A DNA stretch of 64,000 nt. Origin: Methanoculleus bourgensis MS2 (GTDB lineage: Archaea; Halobacteriota; Methanomicrobia; Methanomicrobiales; Methanoculleaceae). The notes beneath the pieces are model-generated. The model was not told where the DNA came from, searched no databases, and was given only the letters and a program-made list of their open reading frames with translations. A program made the translations under genes and the position numbers. The DNA lies in NCBI RefSeq assembly GCF_000304355.2, contig NC_018227.2:558001-622000 (forward strand). The letters run 5' to 3'. This document shows positions 42,420-50,038 of this stretch, in pieces (position 1 is the stretch's first letter; the number at the start of each line of letters is the position of its first letter).

Positions 42420-43367
42420 TCACTCCTCTGCAAATGCCTTCACAAGATCATATTCAGTTACGAGTCCGACAAGGTGCGAATCCTCTATGACGGGGAACGC
42501 CCCGATACGCCTCTGGATCATCTCGATGGCGATGTCGTGGATGTTCCGGTCCGGGGTGGTGGTATGGAGTTCACCGGAGAGGAGCGACCGCACCGGTGCC
42601 CCCATCACCTCGGCCGAGTCTCCGGTCGTCAGCTGCTCAAACACCTTGCCCTTGCCGAGGTAATTCATGATATCGGTTGCGGTAACGATGCCGCAGAGGA
42701 CATCGTCCACGACGACCGGGAGACGCCTGAACCTGCACTTCACCATCTCTTCGCAGACCTTGCCGATCGGGGTATCGGGGCTGGTGACACGTACCGACGA
42801 CTTCATGATATCCTCCACTCTGCGACTCGAGTTCTCGGTGGTGAGCACCTTCATCACGTCGCGCTCGGTCACGATACCCCTCAGGTTCTCTTCGGCGTCG
42901 ATGATGGGGATTCCACCAATGTTCCGGTTGATGATGACATTGACTGCATCATCGATGCTCCCGGTGACGGGCATGGTCACCGGTTGCGGCGTCATGATCT
43001 CGCGCAGCCCCTCGTTGATGGCAGCGAGGAAGTTGCCCTTATGCTTCACCTGCACGAGGTTGAACTTGTCGCCGCCGCCCATGAAGTTGATGATGTCGCT
43101 GACAGTTACGATCCCCCTGAGGCGGTGTGTTCCGGCATCAACGACCGGCAGCCTGCGAAACCCTTCCCGGGTCATAATCTCGACTGCCTGGATGATCGTG
43201 GTGGTCTGCTGTGCTGTGATGACGTTTCTGGTAGCGATCGCCATGATCTCGCCTTCATATCCGGCGATCCTTGTCTTGAAATCGACAGGTCCGCGGTTGA
43301 GTTTGCCCGGCATCTTCAGGAGCCTGTCAGCCGGTTTCTTCTCTGAATGATTTGGGTTCGGTTGCAT
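42420..43367 (-). CDS. Four-CBS-domain protein (third of five)
   Basis: A 315-residue protein with a 50-residue basic N-terminus (KKPADRLLKMPGKLNRGPVD) and four CBS domains, recognised by GFRRLPVVDAGTHRLRGIVT, GGIPIIDAEENLRGIVTERD, RRLPVVVDDVLCGIVTATDI and GAFPVIEDSHLVGLVTEYDL. GGAGTG precedes its ATG. A start of this kind, with RLLKMPGKLNRGPV and then a FKTRIAGYEGEIMAIATRN segment, is the only non-CBS sequence in it. It has no recognisable effector domain. Confidence 0.9.
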   Translation of the reverse strand: MQPNPNHSEKKPADRLLKMPGKLNRGPVDFKTRIAGYEGEIMAIATRNVITAQQTTTIIQAVEIMTREGFRRLPVVDAGTHRLRGIVTVSDIINFMGGGDKFNLVQVKHKGNFLAAINEGLREIMTPQPVTMPVTGSIDDAVNVIINRNIGGIPIIDAEENLRGIVTERDVMKVLTTENSSRRVEDIMKSSVRVTSPDTPIGKVCEEMVKCRFRRLPVVVDDVLCGIVTATDIMNYLGKGKVFEQLTTGDSAEVMGAPVRSLLSGELHTTTPDRNIHDIAIEMIQRRIGAFPVIEDSHLVGLVTEYDLVKAFAEE

Positions 43368-43403
43368 GGTATCACTCCTCTGGGATTGGTATTCGAAATG
43401 CTC

Positions 43404-44159
43404 TCATGGGATTAGGCAGCTAGAGACATCATGACGGTCGATGATACCGACGATTCTCTTCCTCTCATCAATGACGGGGAGGATGCTGATATCGTGGTCG
43501 ACCATCAGTCTTGCCGCCGTGGCTACCTGATCATCGGGCGTCACGCTGACGACGGGCGTCGTCATCACCCGGTCCACGGTGGTGTCTGCCTGGTTCTTCA
43601 CCGATATGCGGACGTTTCCTGCGCGCAGGAGATCCCGGCGGGAGATGATGCCGATGACCTCGTCCTTCTGCACCACCGGGAACGCAATAAAGCCGCTGGA
43701 GACGATCAGGCTATAGATCTTGTGTATGGGATCCTCTGGTGCACAGGTGATGGGCTCCCGCGTCATGACGTCCCCGACCCTGCCGGGGATGTTGCGGCGC
43801 GATATCAGGACCGGGAAGAGTTCGGAGAAGAGCACTCCTCCCAGGAGCACACCGTCTTCGTCGACGACTGCAGCGCTATTGGTATAGGCATCCATTATGG
43901 CACGAGCGACCTCTGTGAGGGGGGTATCCCGGGTTACCCGGGCTGCCTCCCTGACAAAACCCTTGATAGTGACGTTCGATTTGGTATCCACCACTCTGAG
44001 GACGTCGGATATATCGAGATAGCCCATCAGGCGGTTTTTTTCATCCACGACGTAGAGTTCGCGGAAGACGTCGTCCCGGAGGACGCTGCGTGCTTTCGTG
44101 ACGTGGTCGTCGTAGCGCAGGACGGGAATCTTCACCATCAGGTTTGAGGCCACTTTCAT
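43404..44159 (-). CDS. Four-CBS-domain protein (second of five)
   Basis: A 251-residue protein, four CBS domains, from the ATG at 44159 (MKVASNLMVKIPVLRYDDHV). GGAGGAG lies about 9 bases upstream of that ATG, and the longer frame reads through the zinc-ribbon end of the preceding gene, so it is rejected. Later repeats read AAVVDEDGVLLGGVLFSELF, AFPVVQKDEVIGIISRRDLL and ILPVIDERKRIVGIIDRHDV. The start overlaps the first CBS gene by 4 bases. Confidence 0.9.
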   Translation of the reverse strand: MKVASNLMVKIPVLRYDDHVTKARSVLRDDVFRELYVVDEKNRLMGYLDISDVLRVVDTKSNVTIKGFVREAARVTRDTPLTEVARAIMDAYTNSAAVVDEDGVLLGGVLFSELFPVLISRRNIPGRVGDVMTREPITCAPEDPIHKIYSLIVSSGFIAFPVVQKDEVIGIISRRDLLRAGNVRISVKNQADTTVDRVMTTPVVSVTPDDQVATAARLMVDHDISILPVIDERKRIVGIIDRHDVSSCLIP

Positions 44160-44719
44160 AACAACTGCTCCTCCTCCCGGCAGACGGGGCAGAGCATAAG
44201 GTTGTCGACCCGCGAGAGGTCGTCGGACATGTTCCCGCACCGGTCGCAGACGCCCATGGTGTACTCCTCCTCGCGGTTGATCTCGATGAGGTCTGCCAGC
44301 AGTTCGTTCAACTCAGCCGCGACAGTGAGAATATCCCGGACTGTCACGATCCCGATGACCAGCTGGTTCTCAACAACAGGAAGCCTGCGGACGCGGTGCT
44401 TCACCATCATTGTTGATGCGTCACCGACCAGTTTGTCGGCACCGATCGTGATCAGCGGGGTGCTCATGATCTCGCTGACATGAATACTGCTCGGTTTTAA
44501 GTCTTTTGCCACGACTTTACAGTTGATATCCTCCTCTGTGACGATCCCGATGGGCAGGTTATTTTGTAATACGATACAACTACCGACCTCATCGCGGCAC
44601 ATTGCCTGTGCCGCCCGGGCGACTGTCTCCCCCACATCGATGGTCGTTGGATGGCTCCGCATGACCTCCCTGACTGGAACGCGTGTCTCGAAGTGGATGG
44701 TATCGTTATTGTTCATCAT
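44156..44719 (-). CDS. CBS-pair protein with C-terminal zinc ribbon (first of five)
   Basis: A 187-residue protein that leads the CBS operon. Two CBS domains (residues about 12-75 and 78-140; GSCIVLQNNLPIGIVTEEDI, RRLPVVENQLVIGIVTVRDI) are followed by a zinc-ribbon-like tail with CDRCGNMSDD and LMLCPVCREEE, giving two CxxC pairs. CBS plus zinc ribbon suggests a ligand-sensing protein that binds nucleic acid or a protein partner. GGAG lies six bases before the ATG. It is divergent from the Era-like GTPase gene, with an AT-rich shared region between. Confidence 0.9.
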   Translation of the reverse strand: MMNNNDTIHFETRVPVREVMRSHPTTIDVGETVARAAQAMCRDEVGSCIVLQNNLPIGIVTEEDINCKVVAKDLKPSSIHVSEIMSTPLITIGADKLVGDASTMMVKHRVRRLPVVENQLVIGIVTVRDILTVAAELNELLADLIEINREEEYTMGVCDRCGNMSDDLSRVDNLMLCPVCREEEQLL

Positions 44720-44929: not shown

Positions 44930-45571
44930 ATGAAGTTCTTAGTTCGTACAAAACAGAAGATCTCGCAGTTCCTAAAGACGTTCTTCAGGAAGCGGACCTG
45001 CAGGATTGGGATCTACGGGCCGCCTAATGCGGGCAAGACAACGCTCGCAAACAGGATCGTGCGGGATTGGACCGGTGATGCAGTCGGGCCGGTCAGCGAG
45101 GTGCCGCACGAGACCCGTCGTGTGCGGCGCAAGCAGGATATCACTATCACGGGCCAGAACGGCCACTCGATCACCTTCGATATCGTCGATACGCCGGGTG
45201 TGACGACCAAGATCGATTATAATGAGTTCATCGAATACGGTTTTGAGAAGGAGGAGGCAGTCAGGCGGGCACGGGAGGCGACCGAGGGGGTGGCCGAGGC
45301 GATGCACTGGCTCCGTGAGGATATCGACGGCGTCATCTACATGCTCGATTCCACGCAGGACCCGTTCCAGCAGGTGAATATCATGATGGTGGGGATCATC
45401 GAGAGCAGGAAACTTCCGATCCTGATCGTCGCCAACAAAAACGATCTTCCTGATGCTTCGCCGGCGCGGATCAAGAGTGCGTTTCCCCAGCACCCTGTGG
45501 TTGCCATATCGGGCCTGGAGGGAAACAACGTGGATGAACTGTATGAGCAGATGACGTCCTATTTCGGGTGA
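44930..45571 (+). CDS. Era-like GTP-binding protein (Oap cluster)
   Basis: A 213-residue small GTPase. G1 is GIYGPPNAGKTTLANRI near residue 28, G3 is FDIVDTPGV near 83, G4 is VANKND near 167 and G5 is AISGLEG near 190. The N-terminal 25 residues are basic. It heads a three-gene operon with a DUF2073 protein and a zinc-ribbon protein, which I know as the archaeal OapABC (origin-associated) set; in haloarchaea it lies by a replication origin. GGGTG precedes the ATG. Confidence 0.9.
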   Translation: MKFLVRTKQKISQFLKTFFRKRTCRIGIYGPPNAGKTTLANRIVRDWTGDAVGPVSEVPHETRRVRRKQDITITGQNGHSITFDIVDTPGVTTKIDYNEFIEYGFEKEEAVRRAREATEGVAEAMHWLREDIDGVIYMLDSTQDPFQQVNIMMVGIIESRKLPILIVANKNDLPDASPARIKSAFPQHPVVAISGLEGNNVDELYEQMTSYFG

Positions 45572-45942
45572 TGGAGATGATACAGGGTGTACAGATAGAC
45601 CTTATTTCGGCAGAGCGCCTTGACCGGCTCACTGCGATGGAGAAGATCCGCCTGATCCTCGACGATGTCATGGAGGGGAACATTGTCGTCCTGGAGAAGG
45701 GTCTTGCGCCTGATGAGCAGAGCAAGCTCATTGAAATTACGATGCGGGAGATCACGCCAGACGGGTTCTCGGGTATCGAGATGGAGACGTATCCTGTCAG
45801 GGATGCCCCGGACGGTTTTCTGGCGAGACTCTTCGGCGGGAAGCGCTCTGAGACACGGCTGACCGTGATCGGGCCGGCCAACCAGCTCAAGACCATCAAG
45901 AAAGAGAAGGATCTCATCAGTGCATGGGTTTCCTCCAGGTGA
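45571..45942 (+). CDS. DUF2073-family protein (OapB-like)
   Basis: A 123-residue archaeal protein matching my memory of DUF2073: GVQIDLISAERLDRLTAMEK at the start, then IRLILDDVMEGNIVVLEKGL, IEMETYPV and LTVIGPANQLKTIKKEKDLI near the end. No catalytic motif is evident. The ATG at 45571 shares a base with the GTPase stop (TGATG). Its biochemical role is not established. Confidence 0.85.
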   Translation: MEMIQGVQIDLISAERLDRLTAMEKIRLILDDVMEGNIVVLEKGLAPDEQSKLIEITMREITPDGFSGIEMETYPVRDAPDGFLARLFGGKRSETRLTVIGPANQLKTIKKEKDLISAWVSSR

Positions 45943-45964
45943 ATAGAATTTTGGGTGATAATTG

Positions 45965-46339
45965 ATGCCTCACAAATGTACGCAATGCGGCAGGGAGTTC
46001 GAAGACGGGTCGACGACGATACTGAAAGGGTGCCCGAGTTGCGGCGGGAAGAAGTTTCTCTACATCCGTGAGGCTGAGCGGCACGACGATGTGCTGAAAG
46101 AAAAATCGATCGATGAGATTGTCAGGGATACGGGGGAGGATGTGCTTGAGGTCCGTGATGAGCGAAAGAGAGAGGAGATCGAGGTCTTTGAACGGATCGA
46201 GAGCATCCGTATCCTTGCTCCTGGTTCGTATGAACTGAATATCGAGAAACTGGCCAGGTCTGATGAGGTCGTTCTCGGGCTGGAGAAGGAGGGGAGATAC
46301 ATGGTGGATATCCTCTCCATGGCCCGGAAGAAGAAGTGA
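45965..46339 (+). CDS. Zinc-ribbon protein (OapC/DUF2072-like)
   Basis: A 124-residue protein with an N-terminal zinc ribbon (HKCTQCGREF then GCPSCGGKKF), a charged middle and a C-terminal domain ending GSYELNIEKLARSDEVVLGL, then EKEGRYMVDILSMARKKK. It is the third gene of the GTPase/DUF2073/zinc-ribbon cluster. The ATG at 45965 is chosen over an overlapping TTG because GGGTGAT is well spaced. Confidence 0.87.
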   Translation: MPHKCTQCGREFEDGSTTILKGCPSCGGKKFLYIREAERHDDVLKEKSIDEIVRDTGEDVLEVRDERKREEIEVFERIESIRILAPGSYELNIEKLARSDEVVLGLEKEGRYMVDILSMARKKK

Positions 46340-46404: not shown

Positions 46405-46412
46405 TTATATAA
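46405..46412 (+). promoter_or_regulatory. TATA box of the KamA-like gene
   Basis: AAACTTATATAATC is a good archaeal TATA box. A start about 25-28 bases on, near 46434, gives a leader of about 190 nt before the ATG at 46623. Confidence 0.6.
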
Positions 46413-46439
46413 TCTCATGACCTTTTTTTTGCATAGAAT

Positions 46440-46510
46440 ATAACCCGACACTCATAGGCGCATGTCGGGCAATGGTTTCCTGTATGAGAGCGTGGAAACC
46501 CTCATGAATC
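46440..46510 (+). ncRNA. Candidate structured leader: twin hairpins with kissing loops
   Basis: Two perfect 7-bp hairpins stand side by side. The first pairs CCCGACA (46444-46450) with TGTCGGG (46463-46469); the second pairs GGTTTCC (46474-46480) with GGAAACC (46494-46500). Loop 1 contains CTCATA (46451-46456) and loop 2 contains its exact complement TATGAG (46483-46488), so a kissing-loop contact is possible. A second CTCAT at 46501-46505 could compete for loop 2. The placement downstream of a TATA box and upstream of the KamA-like gene suggests a cis-regulatory RNA or a small RNA. I recognise no known class. Confidence 0.5.
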
Positions 46511-46622
46511 CTGTGTGTTGACAGATCAACTTATCTCTGATCGATTGCTCTCGTGCGGCCTCCTCCCGACTGCTTCTGACCGTACCCTTGTAACGGGGGG
46601 TGTCTACGTGGAGAACGATACC

Positions 46623-47798
46623 ATGAATCCGACGTATATATCATCACTCGATACGGTTTCCGGGATCAGTCCGGAGGAGCGTGCCCGCCTCGCGCGGGTG
46701 ACCGATCTCTTTGCGTTCCGGTCAAATGACTATTATCTCTCGTTGATAGACTGGGATGATCCGAAAGATCCTATCAGGCGGCTGATCATACCGACCCTTG
46801 AGGAGCTTGAGCCCTGGGGGCGTCTGGACCCATCGTCGGAGCACCTGTATACCCGGGCGCCGGGGCTGCAGCATAAGTACCGGGAGACGGCTCTCCTGCT
46901 GGTGAGTGATCTCTGCGGCGGTCTCTGCCGGTACTGTTTCCGCAAACGTCTCTTCATTGACGACGCCCGTGAGGTGAACAGGGATATCTCGGGGGGGCTT
47001 GCCTACATCAGGGAGCACCCCGAGATCACGAACGTCCTGCTCACCGGTGGCGATCCCCTGATCCTCGATACCGCCCGTCTGCGGGAGATCCTTGCCCGTC
47101 TCCGGGGGATTGAGCACGTCAGGATCATCAGGATCGGGACGAAGATGCCAGCATATAATCCCTACCGGATCATTAACGATCCCGGCCTGCTTGACGCAGT
47201 CAGGGAGTACAGCCTTGGCGAGAAGAGTATCTACATCATGGTGCAGTTCAACCATCCCCGTGAGCTGACCGAGGCTGCGTGCCGGGCGGTGGCGCTCCTG
47301 CAGGATGCCGGGGCGGTTATCATGAACCAGACGCCCCTGATCCGGGGTATCAACGATGACCCTGCGGTGTTATCGAGGCTTCTTGGGCGGCTCTCGTTCA
47401 TCGGGGTCAACCCCTACTATGTCTTCCAGTGCCGGCCCACGACCGGGAACCGGCCGTTTGCGGTGCCGGTGGAGGAGTCGTACCGGATATTTGAGCGGGC
47501 GCGGGCGACCTGCTCGGGGCTCTCCAAGCAGGCGCGGTTTGTTATGTCCCATGCTACCGGGAAGATCGAGGTGGTGGGGATGACTGATGAGTACACCTTC
47601 TTTAAGTACAACCAGGCGGCGGACCCGGATGATATCGGGCGGTTTATGGTCTACAGGGGTAACCCGGAGGCCTACTGGTTCGATGACTACACGGATCTCG
47701 TGGATGAGGGGCGGATCTGGAAGTCAGGGCGGGTCGATGGGGATCCCGGCGGGCGCGGGGTGCAGGTCAAGACTGAGGAGAGTCCGGTGGTGTTGTAG
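46623..47798 (+). CDS. KamA-family radical SAM protein
   Basis: A 391-residue radical SAM enzyme related to lysine 2,3-aminomutase. The cluster motif is CGGLCRYCFRKR (CxxxCxxC). Preceding KYRETALLLVSDLCGG and following NVLLTGGDPLILDT, RIGTKMP, MVQFNHPREL and MNQTPLIRGIND are all typical of the family. Methanogens use a KamA/YodO pair to make the osmolyte N-epsilon-acetyl-beta-lysine, but no acetyltransferase is adjacent here and KamA-like proteins vary in substrate. I start at the ATG at 46623, with GTGGAG eight bases upstream; the open frame extends to 46515. A structured leader precedes it. Confidence 0.85.
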   Translation: MNPTYISSLDTVSGISPEERARLARVTDLFAFRSNDYYLSLIDWDDPKDPIRRLIIPTLEELEPWGRLDPSSEHLYTRAPGLQHKYRETALLLVSDLCGGLCRYCFRKRLFIDDAREVNRDISGGLAYIREHPEITNVLLTGGDPLILDTARLREILARLRGIEHVRIIRIGTKMPAYNPYRIINDPGLLDAVREYSLGEKSIYIMVQFNHPRELTEAACRAVALLQDAGAVIMNQTPLIRGINDDPAVLSRLLGRLSFIGVNPYYVFQCRPTTGNRPFAVPVEESYRIFERARATCSGLSKQARFVMSHATGKIEVVGMTDEYTFFKYNQAADPDDIGRFMVYRGNPEAYWFDDYTDLVDEGRIWKSGRVDGDPGGRGVQVKTEESPVVL

Positions 47799-47853: not shown

Positions 47854-48264
47854 TTATACTGCAGTGCCGTTCCCAAGATCGTGGAGGAGCCAGCTGCCGC
47901 TGCCCTCTGCAACGATCTGGATATGGGGATTCTCAGGCACATCATTGCTGAGGACGAGGGCCTGCCCGGTCTTCCACGACGTCCAGGTTTCGCACTCGTG
48001 CCCTGCGCCGTCGATGAGGGTGAAATGTTTCGGCTCGCCGTCGACGAGGATCTTGAAGTGCCCGCGTTCGAGGGGGTCGCCGCCGTCGTGGTAGATGAAG
48101 ATGCTTCCGTTCTCATCAGTCACACTGCGGGCGAGCATCGCGGGCGCTGCATCGCCCATCGTGCTGGAGAGGAGCGCCACCCCGACGATCGCCGCCGCTG
48201 TCACGAAGACGGCGATGAGGGCCATGACGCCGATGAGATCGGAGGCGGCGGTGTCGTTGGGCAT
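47854..48264 (-). CDS. Type IV pilin-like protein, short
   Basis: A 136-residue protein with an archaeal pilin-type N-terminus: MPNDTAASDLIGVMALIAVF then a long hydrophobic helix to about residue 35. The outer part contains IFIYHDGGDPLERGHFKILV, which matches the LAHEGGDPLREGEYRIYIEN segment of its larger neighbour, so the two are related (DUF1628 type). It is third and last of a leftward trio. Pilins of this class are cleaved by an archaeal prepilin peptidase before the helix; the exact site is unclear here. Confidence 0.8.
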   Translation of the reverse strand: MPNDTAASDLIGVMALIAVFVTAAAIVGVALLSSTMGDAAPAMLARSVTDENGSIFIYHDGGDPLERGHFKILVDGEPKHFTLIDGAGHECETWTSWKTGQALVLSNDVPENPHIQIVAEGSGSWLLHDLGNGTAV

Positions 48265-48290
48265 GAGTGGTTCCTTTGGGTTCCTGATGT

Positions 48291-49118
48291 CTAATTTGTC
48301 CGCTCAATTTTTACTGTTCGAGCATCACAACCTACGACGAAATTTGTTTCATTAAAGGCAATTGCAACGACGACGACGGTATCCCCATCGCAGATTTGGC
48401 CTGGTGGAATACCACCTAATCTTGCTTCATATGTGCCGTTCCCGGGAACCCATGTCACGTTTTTCTGGTGATCATCATAGTGCTTCGAGGAATCAGTAGC
48501 ATAACCATACAGCAAGAAGTCCACCCGCGTGACGCTAACGTTAGTTACATTCGCCGACACAAAAGACCGACAATCACCACCTATCTTAACAAACTTCATT
48601 GTAGTCCCGATTCCAGGGATAACAATGCTGATGGGCGTCTCTTCCGACCCGTTACCCCCTCCGTCTGACACCGTCCCTGGCTCCACCGGGTCCGGGGAGA
48701 ACCCCGCCGTCCCTCCTCCCCTGAACTCCGGTTCTGCAAGGATCGTCTCACCGCCCCCCGAGATCGCGGTCACGACCACTCTCTCCGGCTTCTCTGTGCC
48801 GTTATAGACGAGCGCTCCCCCGATCGACCAGACGCCGTCTTCAGGTTTGCTGAAACTCCCGGTCCCATCCACAAACCCGCTTTCGTTCTCGATATAGATC
48901 CGGTACTCCCCCTCCCTCAGGGGGTCCCCTCCCTCGTGGGCGAGGGTGAGGCTGCCGCTCTTATTCCCCGCGACGATGGTTGCATGAGGGATCTCGTCCG
49001 GCTGGGGGCCGGAGAGGAAGAGCGCCGCCATGACCGCCACGGCGAGGACGGTCACGCCGACCAGGAGTACAACCCCGATCACCTCGGAGACTCCTTCTTC
49101 ACCAGGGTATCGTGTCAT
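48291..49118 (-). CDS. Type IV pilin-like protein with extended outer domain
   Basis: A 275-residue protein. The N-terminus PGEEGVSEVIGVVLLVGVTV followed by hydrophobic residues to about 40 is a typical archaeal pilin (DUF1628) signal with conserved SEVIGVVL. The outer domain holds the DUF1628 segment (EGGDPLREGEYRIYI) and a Gly/Ser-rich linker near 155-170, then a second region with several N-x-S/T sites (NVTNVS, NVTW, NETN) suitable for N-glycosylation. I chose ATG at 49118 because GGAGTG lies upstream; a GTG at 49127 is also open. Confidence 0.82.
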   Translation of the reverse strand: MTRYPGEEGVSEVIGVVLLVGVTVLAVAVMAALFLSGPQPDEIPHATIVAGNKSGSLTLAHEGGDPLREGEYRIYIENESGFVDGTGSFSKPEDGVWSIGGALVYNGTEKPERVVVTAISGGGETILAEPEFRGGGTAGFSPDPVEPGTVSDGGGNGSEETPISIVIPGIGTTMKFVKIGGDCRSFVSANVTNVSVTRVDFLLYGYATDSSKHYDDHQKNVTWVPGNGTYEARLGGIPPGQICDGDTVVVVAIAFNETNFVVGCDARTVKIERTN

Positions 49119-49123
49119 ACTGT

Positions 49124-50038
49124 TCACTCCACCAGGGATGCGGCGTTGTGGATCGTCACCGTGTAGTTCGCCTGGTACACGGTGAGGATTACCTTCCTGT
49201 CGCCTGCCGCCTCTGGCCGGATGGTGAGCCGGGCCTTGTTCCCGTCCAACAACTCGGGCTTGGGCAGCCAGGTGACATTCTCATCCATCGCTCTCTGCCG
49301 CACTTCCCCAAACGCCCTCTCCCAGGCCCTGGCCGTCATTGGATTGTCGGCCTCGATGGTCAGGTTCACCCGGTCATAGGCCTCAACGGAAGACGAATTG
49401 CCCCATCGCATCCGGGTCTCGACCCGCACCGGCCCCGAGCCCGCGATCATGTCCGAGCCCTCGAGCCGGATCGGTGCTATGGTGAGGGTGGTGTTCTCCC
49501 CGGCACGCGCCACCGCAATCGACGGCCCGACCCGCACCGTCGCCCCCCCATCCTGGGAGAGGAAGACCGCGCCCATCTGGTAGGTCCAGGTCTGGTCTAC
49601 CCAGTAGTTGTTCGAGGACCGGTAAGTGAGGTTGCCGAGGGGAAGATCCTGTATGGGGGTAGAGATCTCTTCACCATTCTGTGCAGTGACGGTGAGGTTA
49701 GCCCCGCCCTCCGTCACCGAGACCGTCCCCCCCGACCCCGCGGGGGAGAGGATGGGGAGCGCAAAAGCCCCGCCCCCCGTCGCCGCAGCACCCGTCCCAA
49801 GGTCGAAGGCCGTCGAGAGGAGCACCCCACTCCGGTTATTCACCCACAGCGAATCCAGGCTGATCTTATAATCCACGAACCGGTCCTTCACCTGGTTCAT
49901 ATGCGCAATCTCATTCTCCCTTCCCGCCGCCGGGACCCCGTAGACCTGGTAGAGCGAGAGTGCTACAACGATCACGCCAAGAATCAGCACAAAACCGACG
50001 ACCTCCGAGAGGGCGTCATCACGCAGGGGAAGTAGCAT
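49124..50038 (-). CDS. Pilin-like membrane-anchored surface protein
   Basis: A 304-residue protein with N-terminal DDALSEVVGFVLILGVIVVA and a hydrophobic helix to about residue 30, again the archaeal pilin pattern. The rest is an outer domain rich in beta-strand sequence and N-x-S/T sites (NRSG, NLTV, NLTY, NTTL, NSSS, NLTI). It leads the leftward trio, with GGATAAATAC near 50072 as a likely TATA box. Together the three may form a pilus or surface filament; the assembly ATPase is not in the window. Confidence 0.8.
   Translation of the reverse strand: MLLPLRDDALSEVVGFVLILGVIVVALSLYQVYGVPAAGRENEIAHMNQVKDRFVDYKISLDSLWVNNRSGVLLSTAFDLGTGAAATGGGAFALPILSPAGSGGTVSVTEGGANLTVTAQNGEEISTPIQDLPLGNLTYRSSNNYWVDQTWTYQMGAVFLSQDGGATVRVGPSIAVARAGENTTLTIAPIRLEGSDMIAGSGPVRVETRMRWGNSSSVEAYDRVNLTIEADNPMTARAWERAFGEVRQRAMDENVTWLPKPELLDGNKARLTIRPEAAGDRKVILTVYQANYTVTIHNAASLVE

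Follow-up and report, generated by a model that had tools for sequence, protein, structure and literature searches.

A conserved and possibly bistable 5' leader of the gene for a KamA-like radical SAM protein in Methanoculleus

Introduction

Na+ riboswitches are known in bacteria on ablA and eam, and one ablA carries a c-di-AMP riboswitch in tandem (PMC9337991). A c-di-AMP riboswitch (RF00379) was located directly upstream of a homologue of the enzyme considered here in 24 of the 30 Paenibacillaceae loci tested. In Paenibacillus sp. GM2, the riboswitch is directly upstream, and the homologue is 53% identical. These riboswitch loci (L180, positions 1172-1312, and 23 among L218-L246) give a functional clue for the enzyme family, and no Rfam elements were found at the loci of other bacterial phyla that were examined. 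Few riboswitches have, to our knowledge, been established in archaea, and a literature search found none described for the order Methanomicrobiales.

The leader described here precedes a gene designated kam in Methanoculleus bourgensis MS2. It was analyzed within a 64-kb stretch of this genome, the “window,” which also contains an archaeal rRNA operon, and in comparison with the leaders of orthologous genes.

Results

Anatomy of the leader and its linkage to kam

The leader is situated between oapC and kam, which encodes a KamA-like radical SAM protein of 391 aa (Table 1). The start codon of kam was assigned to the ATG at position 46623, versus a GTG at 46515 in the mechanical list of open reading frames, and the distance from the predicted transcription start to this ATG is ~189 nt. 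An earlier note on this DNA, made from the sequence alone, had described a structured leader of ~190 nt reaching from a TATA box to a KamA-like radical SAM gene, and this arrangement is conserved among the relatives. The position as 5' leader of one gene is fixed in 32/32 species: the domain is present as a single copy, a TATA-like box is centered 35-40 nt 5' of the 5' strand of helix P1, and the gap between P1 and the Shine-Dalgarno-like motif is 3-7 nt.

Table 1. Features of the kam leader and its surroundings in M. bourgensis MS2, in window coordinates
Feature	Position	Strand	Remarks
Upstream operon oapA(arvA)-oapB-oapC	44930-46339	+	oap naming according to PMC10927574
TATA box TTATATAA	46405-46412	+	Box in sequence; spacing kept among relatives
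Predicted transcription start	~46434	+	Inferred from usual archaeal spacing
Conserved RNA domain, ~165 nt, covariance model R1	46442-46608	+	129 bits in the window
Hairpin 1, CCCGACA/TGTCGGG	46444-46450/46463-46469	+	Local fold
P1, GACACTC/GGGTGTC	46447-46453/46598-46604	+	94-95% paired; 3 pairs changed on both sides; p = 0.02
P2, GCA-T-GTCGGG/CCCGAC-TGC	46460-46469/46565-46573	+	90% paired; 5 core pairs
P3 of relatives, GACGG/CTGTC	46471-46564	+	94% paired; p = 0.04 (both-sided changes)
Hairpin 2, GGTTTCC/GGAAACC	46474-46480/46494-46500	+	Perfect 7 bp only in the window species
GGTTTCCTG, P3/P4 bulge	46474-46482	+	Near-invariant; TTTCC core in 32/32
P4, TGTATGAGAGC/GCTCTCGTGCG	46481-46491/46547-46557	+	93-97% paired; p = 0.025
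Competing local pairing ATGAG/CTCAT	46484-46506	+	92.7% paired; not above shuffles; p = 0.05 (cells paired)
Shine-Dalgarno-like GTGGAG	46608-46613	+	3-7 nt (mostly 5) past P1 in 32/32 species
kam, KamA-like radical SAM/PLP aminomutase family	46623-47798	+	

Among 61 genomes, the leader DNA was matched in 20, and these all belong to Methanoculleus. The covariance model R1 identified the domain in 32 of 35 Methanoculleus genomes, once in each, and in none of the 197 genomes from other genera of the order. The three negative genomes (G010, G026, and G034) are those without a kam orthologue: a search for kam gave zero matches in G026 and G034 and only a distant AblA-type match in G010. The domain is thus present in all 32 genomes with kam and missing where kam is missing, which indicates that it travels with the gene. 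An RNA class common to all Methanomicrobiales was discarded as an interpretation because R1 finds nothing beyond Methanoculleus. The leaders of orthologues in other genera displayed no recognizable homology to the Methanoculleus domain. Lineage-specific stems are found there, some closing just 5' of the Shine-Dalgarno motif (for example, in L098-L107, L058-L065, L061-L080, and L090-L099), and remain a lead only because the folding z-scores of these leaders are weak, with group means between -1.9 and +0.8.

Synteny of oapABC and kam is retained in all 32 Methanoculleus genomes and in several other families of the order. In Haloferax, oapA has been linked to vesicle formation (PMC10927574). As judged by eye from the translated reading frames, three neighboring CBS-domain-like proteins are encoded farther upstream in the window (42420-44719) and several pilin-like proteins, which have a motif of the SEV[IV]G type at the N terminus, downstream at 47854-50038 on the minus strand.

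Two other candidates within this region were rejected. A short upstream reading frame (ATG at 46462, ~20 codons) lacks a Shine-Dalgarno motif, and its frame is, by eye, not kept in the relatives. A pairing of CCCTT with the Shine-Dalgarno motif, the top result of the helix scan, was discarded because CCCTT lies 5' of the likely start site and thus outside the transcript.

When the window and the archaeal leaders were searched with Rfam 15, no family reached its gathering threshold, the best chance match having 12 bits versus a gathering score of 70. No match to the c-di-AMP riboswitch RF00379 was found in either, even at E <= 5. An identity with an Rfam thermometer or riboswitch was rejected since no family was above threshold.

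Twin hairpins with complementary loops

The earlier note had centered on two adjacent perfect 7-bp hairpins whose loops contain CTCATA and TATGAG, and a check of the sequence located both of them as described (CTCATA of loop 1 at 46451-46456, TATGAG of loop 2 at 46483-46488), with an additional CTCAT following hairpin 2 at 46501-46505. The window contains 144 perfect 7-bp hairpins, 5 adjacent pairs of these, and 1 pair with a 6-nt loop complementarity; 10 mononucleotide shuffles, than which the real 64-kb sequence is generally richer in hairpins, averaged 63.3, 0.9, and 0.0, respectively. Twin hairpins with complementary loops are above chance in this single sequence.

Comparison with the relatives divided this proposal. 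The 6-nt loop complement needed for a kissing interaction occurs in only 3 of the 32 Methanoculleus species (L021, L022, and L027), and the 3' arm of hairpin 2 varies without compensation, displaying neither covariation nor support in a tree-aware test. Covariation in the leaders of orthologues was found for hairpin 1 and not for hairpin 2. Loop complementarity, whose lack of conservation the earlier note had named as refuting, and hairpin 2 were therefore lost as conserved features. Hairpin 1 was kept, and a switch in the wider sense remains tenable, by alternative pairing and not via kissing loops. The additional CTCAT had been suggested to compete for the same loop, which agrees with the extent of ATGAG/CTCAT pairing in the alignment (Table 1). 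A stronger partner for the ATGAG segment, overlooked in the earlier note, is GCTCTC[AG]TGC farther downstream (46547-46556).

A long-range fold that excludes hairpin 1

A fold composed of the helices P1 to P4 was derived by RNAalifold and helix scans on the aligned leaders of the Methanoculleus orthologues (32 sequences). Both-sided changes were seen in P1, P2, and P3. In P2, GTCGG pairs with CCGAC. The consensus of P1 among the relatives is CGACACTC with GAGTGTCG, ending ~5 nt before the Shine-Dalgarno motif, with covariation at the alignment positions 11-170 (U-A, C-G, or U-G) and 7-177 (A-U, G-U, or G-C); L027 has lost much of P1. P3 covaries at 33-131 (G-C or A-U) and 35-129 (C-G, U-G, or U-A), with changes from G-C to A-U in 5 species and from C-G to U-A in 3; in the window, with AATGG/CTCCT, P3 consists mostly of mismatches. 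The changes in P4, with the consensus TGYATGAGAGC and GCTCTCATGCA, are mostly one-sided wobble changes. The bulge sequence GGTTTCCTG has a 5-nt match to the Shine-Dalgarno motif, with 91% of the cells paired, and could pair with it. An apical hairpin P6 (GATCG/CGATC in the relatives) was dropped, with a p of 0.9 in the tree-aware test.

The two arms of hairpin 1 are engaged by P1 (first arm) and by P2 (second arm), so that hairpin 1 and P1/P2 are mutually exclusive. For hairpin 1, 90% of the cells are paired and 14 cells are changed on both sides, a result that was reached by 0 of 500 shuffles. Its position 3-30 is U-A in 17, C-G in 11, and U-G in 2 of the sequences, and position 7-25 is A-U or G-C. 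The exchange at 3-30 is explained by hairpin 1 and not by P2, because in the P2 fold position 30, an A, is opposite a C.

In the tree-aware null model, substitutions were redistributed on the species tree while the column rates were kept. The resulting p values, which are raw and come from several measures, were 0.005 for the whole fold, 0.02 for P1, 0.025 for P4, 0.04 for P3, and 0.005-0.01 for hairpin 1; nothing was obtained for hairpin 2, P2 alone, or P6. An R-scape-like test, underpowered with 32 sequences from one genus, gave no significant pair of either fold over all pairs, and only one pair passed 0.05 in the restricted version of the test. The alignment appears to provide modest but consistent covariation support for both folds.

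When each fold was enforced, the energies were close, with a mean difference of 2.6 kcal/mol. P1/P2 was favored in 26 of 32 species (81%), and in the other 6, hairpin 1 was predicted to equal or exceed P1/P2 in stability. The predicted accessibility of the Shine-Dalgarno motif differed modestly between the folds, being slightly lower with hairpin 1 in most species, which weakly suggests that P1/P2 may be the permissive state. The folding energy of the complete leader in the window (46434-46622) was unremarkable, with a z-score of -0.9; that of the core (46442-46608) was -2.1, and the cores of 16 species had a mean z-score of -2.6, ranging from +0.1 to -5.5.

The KamA-like enzyme and a candidate signal

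The kam product scored 220.7 bits with the model for lysine 2,3-aminomutase AblA (TIGR03820, cut-off 525.4) and 219.8 bits with that for glutamate 2,3-aminomutase (TIGR04368, cut-off 650), far below the cut-off in both cases. It possesses the features of the KamA-type radical SAM superfamily, CGGLCRYC as the CxxxCxxC motif and SHATGK, with the PLP lysine present in 127/127 family members. Asp293 of AblA binds the side-chain amine of lysine. This position is occupied by Arg in 127/127 family members (Arg271 in the window protein) and by Asp in 7/7 true AblA proteins. A true AblA function was rejected because the score was under the cut-off and the key residue was the wrong one. The enzyme probably forms a beta-amino acid that protects against salt. 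Possibly, it acts on an acidic substrate, giving beta-glutamate, which is a known osmolyte of methanogens. According to a review (PMC1224877), earlier NMR evidence spoke against methanogens forming their beta-glutamate by a glutamate aminomutase.

No AblA above the cut-off was found in the genome of the window. An AblB-like acetyltransferase above the cut-off is encoded elsewhere in this genome (G000 C1:209698-210495, L249), which keeps a lysine-related role conceivable. An AblB-like protein without AblA above the cut-off is a pattern common to several Methanoculleus genomes, and one genome (G024 C1:604930-607680) contains a second, broken ablA copy in pieces, one of them with a stop codon. 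The kam enzyme family is present in archaea, with homologues in many bacterial phyla.

As a weaker proposition, an osmotic signal might act on the leader, with the ions K+ and Na+, c-di-AMP, and the enzyme's beta-amino acid product as candidates, because most of the Paenibacillaceae homologues are preceded by c-di-AMP riboswitches and methanogens use beta-amino acids as osmolytes. For c-di-AMP, its candidacy is based on RF00379 upstream of the homologues, on the diadenylate cyclase encoded in 34 of 35 Methanoculleus genomes, and on the connection of c-di-AMP to osmoregulation in Haloferax (PMC6741144).

Discussion

As far as comparison of the genomes shows, the domain, its linkage to kam, its fixed anatomy, and two mutually exclusive pairings are conserved, and the leader has the appearance of an RNA switch from a class that is still uncatalogued. 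With somewhat better than even confidence, it is regarded as a 5' leader that acts in cis on the kam mRNA and is bistable. The 5' element CCGACACTC...TGTCGG would pair either locally as hairpin 1 or over a long range, each way excluding the other. In the long-range state, the first arm would close the domain on GAGTGTC before the Shine-Dalgarno motif (P1), P2 would be formed by the second arm and CCCGAC, and P4 by the GYATGAGAGC segment and GCTCTCATGC. Hairpin 1 may form first, during transcription, and a later signal may decide whether the P1/P2/P4 fold displaces it. With P1 closing ~5 nt from the Shine-Dalgarno motif, the choice of the fold would set the access of the ribosome and hence the level of the enzyme. 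A more specific version, in which the leader represents a class of archaeal riboswitches that Rfam lacks, with hairpin 1 versus P1/P2 under an osmotic signal setting the level of an aminomutase that is possibly a beta-glutamate synthase, as a counterpart of the Paenibacillaceae c-di-AMP riboswitches, is tentative and has a limited chance of being correct.

The same conservation could also result from protein binding to a structured leader that is not refolded by a ligand. The protein would be either the enzyme itself, in an autoregulatory manner, or an RNA-binding regulator, so that only P1-P4 matters and hairpin 1 is incidental. The near-invariant bulge GGTTTCCTG, the conserved long-range fold, and the preference for P1/P2 in 81% of the species agree with such a site, but the compensatory changes at position 3-30 of hairpin 1 are left unexplained by P1/P2, and this possibility is considered rather unlikely. 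A stable small RNA transcribed from its own promoter, with kam merely located downstream, would account for the constant spacing of the TATA box and for the strong sequence conservation. This is improbable and less likely than a cis-acting leader: the domain is always present as a single copy, always before kam, and is lost with kam, the end of P1 is fixed 3-7 nt from the kam Shine-Dalgarno motif, and the sequence from the domain to kam shows no obvious T-run terminator.

An RNA thermometer would profit from two folds of nearly equal energy, but no Rfam thermometer was above threshold. An element at the DNA level might be an operator or a replication origin beside oapABC, since the haloarchaeal oap genes adjoin an origin (PMC10927574). 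Covariation with G-U intermediates, however, points to RNA, and the origin was rejected because the best Orc1/Cdc6 gene is at genome position 488, ~600 kb away, with paralogues elsewhere; the thermometer and the DNA-level element are, taken together, very unlikely. Lowest in probability, and hardly credible as a conserved device, is the kissing-loop twin-hairpin element. Its loop match is exact in the window species, L022, and L027, but absent from 29 of 32 species, and hairpin 2 is without support.

Should the leader answer an osmotic signal, the same osmolyte-type enzyme would be governed by unrelated RNA leaders in archaea and in bacteria. The replacement of Asp by Arg and the riboswitch context also make the assignment of the enzyme family to beta-glutamate testable.

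Compared with the described systems, kam shares the radical SAM CxxxCxxC motif and a PLP-type fold with AblA and glutamate 2,3-aminomutase, but it has SH[AT][TS]GK instead of DAPGGGGK at the PLP lysine and no AblB partner alongside. In Paenibacillaceae, RF00379 (the ydaO/yuaA leader) is a long structured leader directly upstream of the same stand-alone enzyme gene family, as is the leader in Methanoculleus, whereas the Methanoculleus domain matches RF00379 neither in sequence nor in structure and has its own competition between hairpin 1 and P1. The Na+ riboswitches (DUF1646 motif) and the tandem Na+/c-di-AMP riboswitches exert RNA control over aminomutases for beta-amino acid osmolytes, and a similar role is proposed for the Methanoculleus leader; the Na+ riboswitches are bacterial, while this leader matches no Rfam family. 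Bistable translational riboswitches in general have a P1 adjoining the ribosome-binding site and mutually exclusive local and long-range helices. The Methanoculleus leader differs from them in being archaeal, confined to one genus, and associated with candidate ligands only, but it has the same predicted arrangement of P1 next to the ribosome-binding site and of local and long-range helices that exclude each other.
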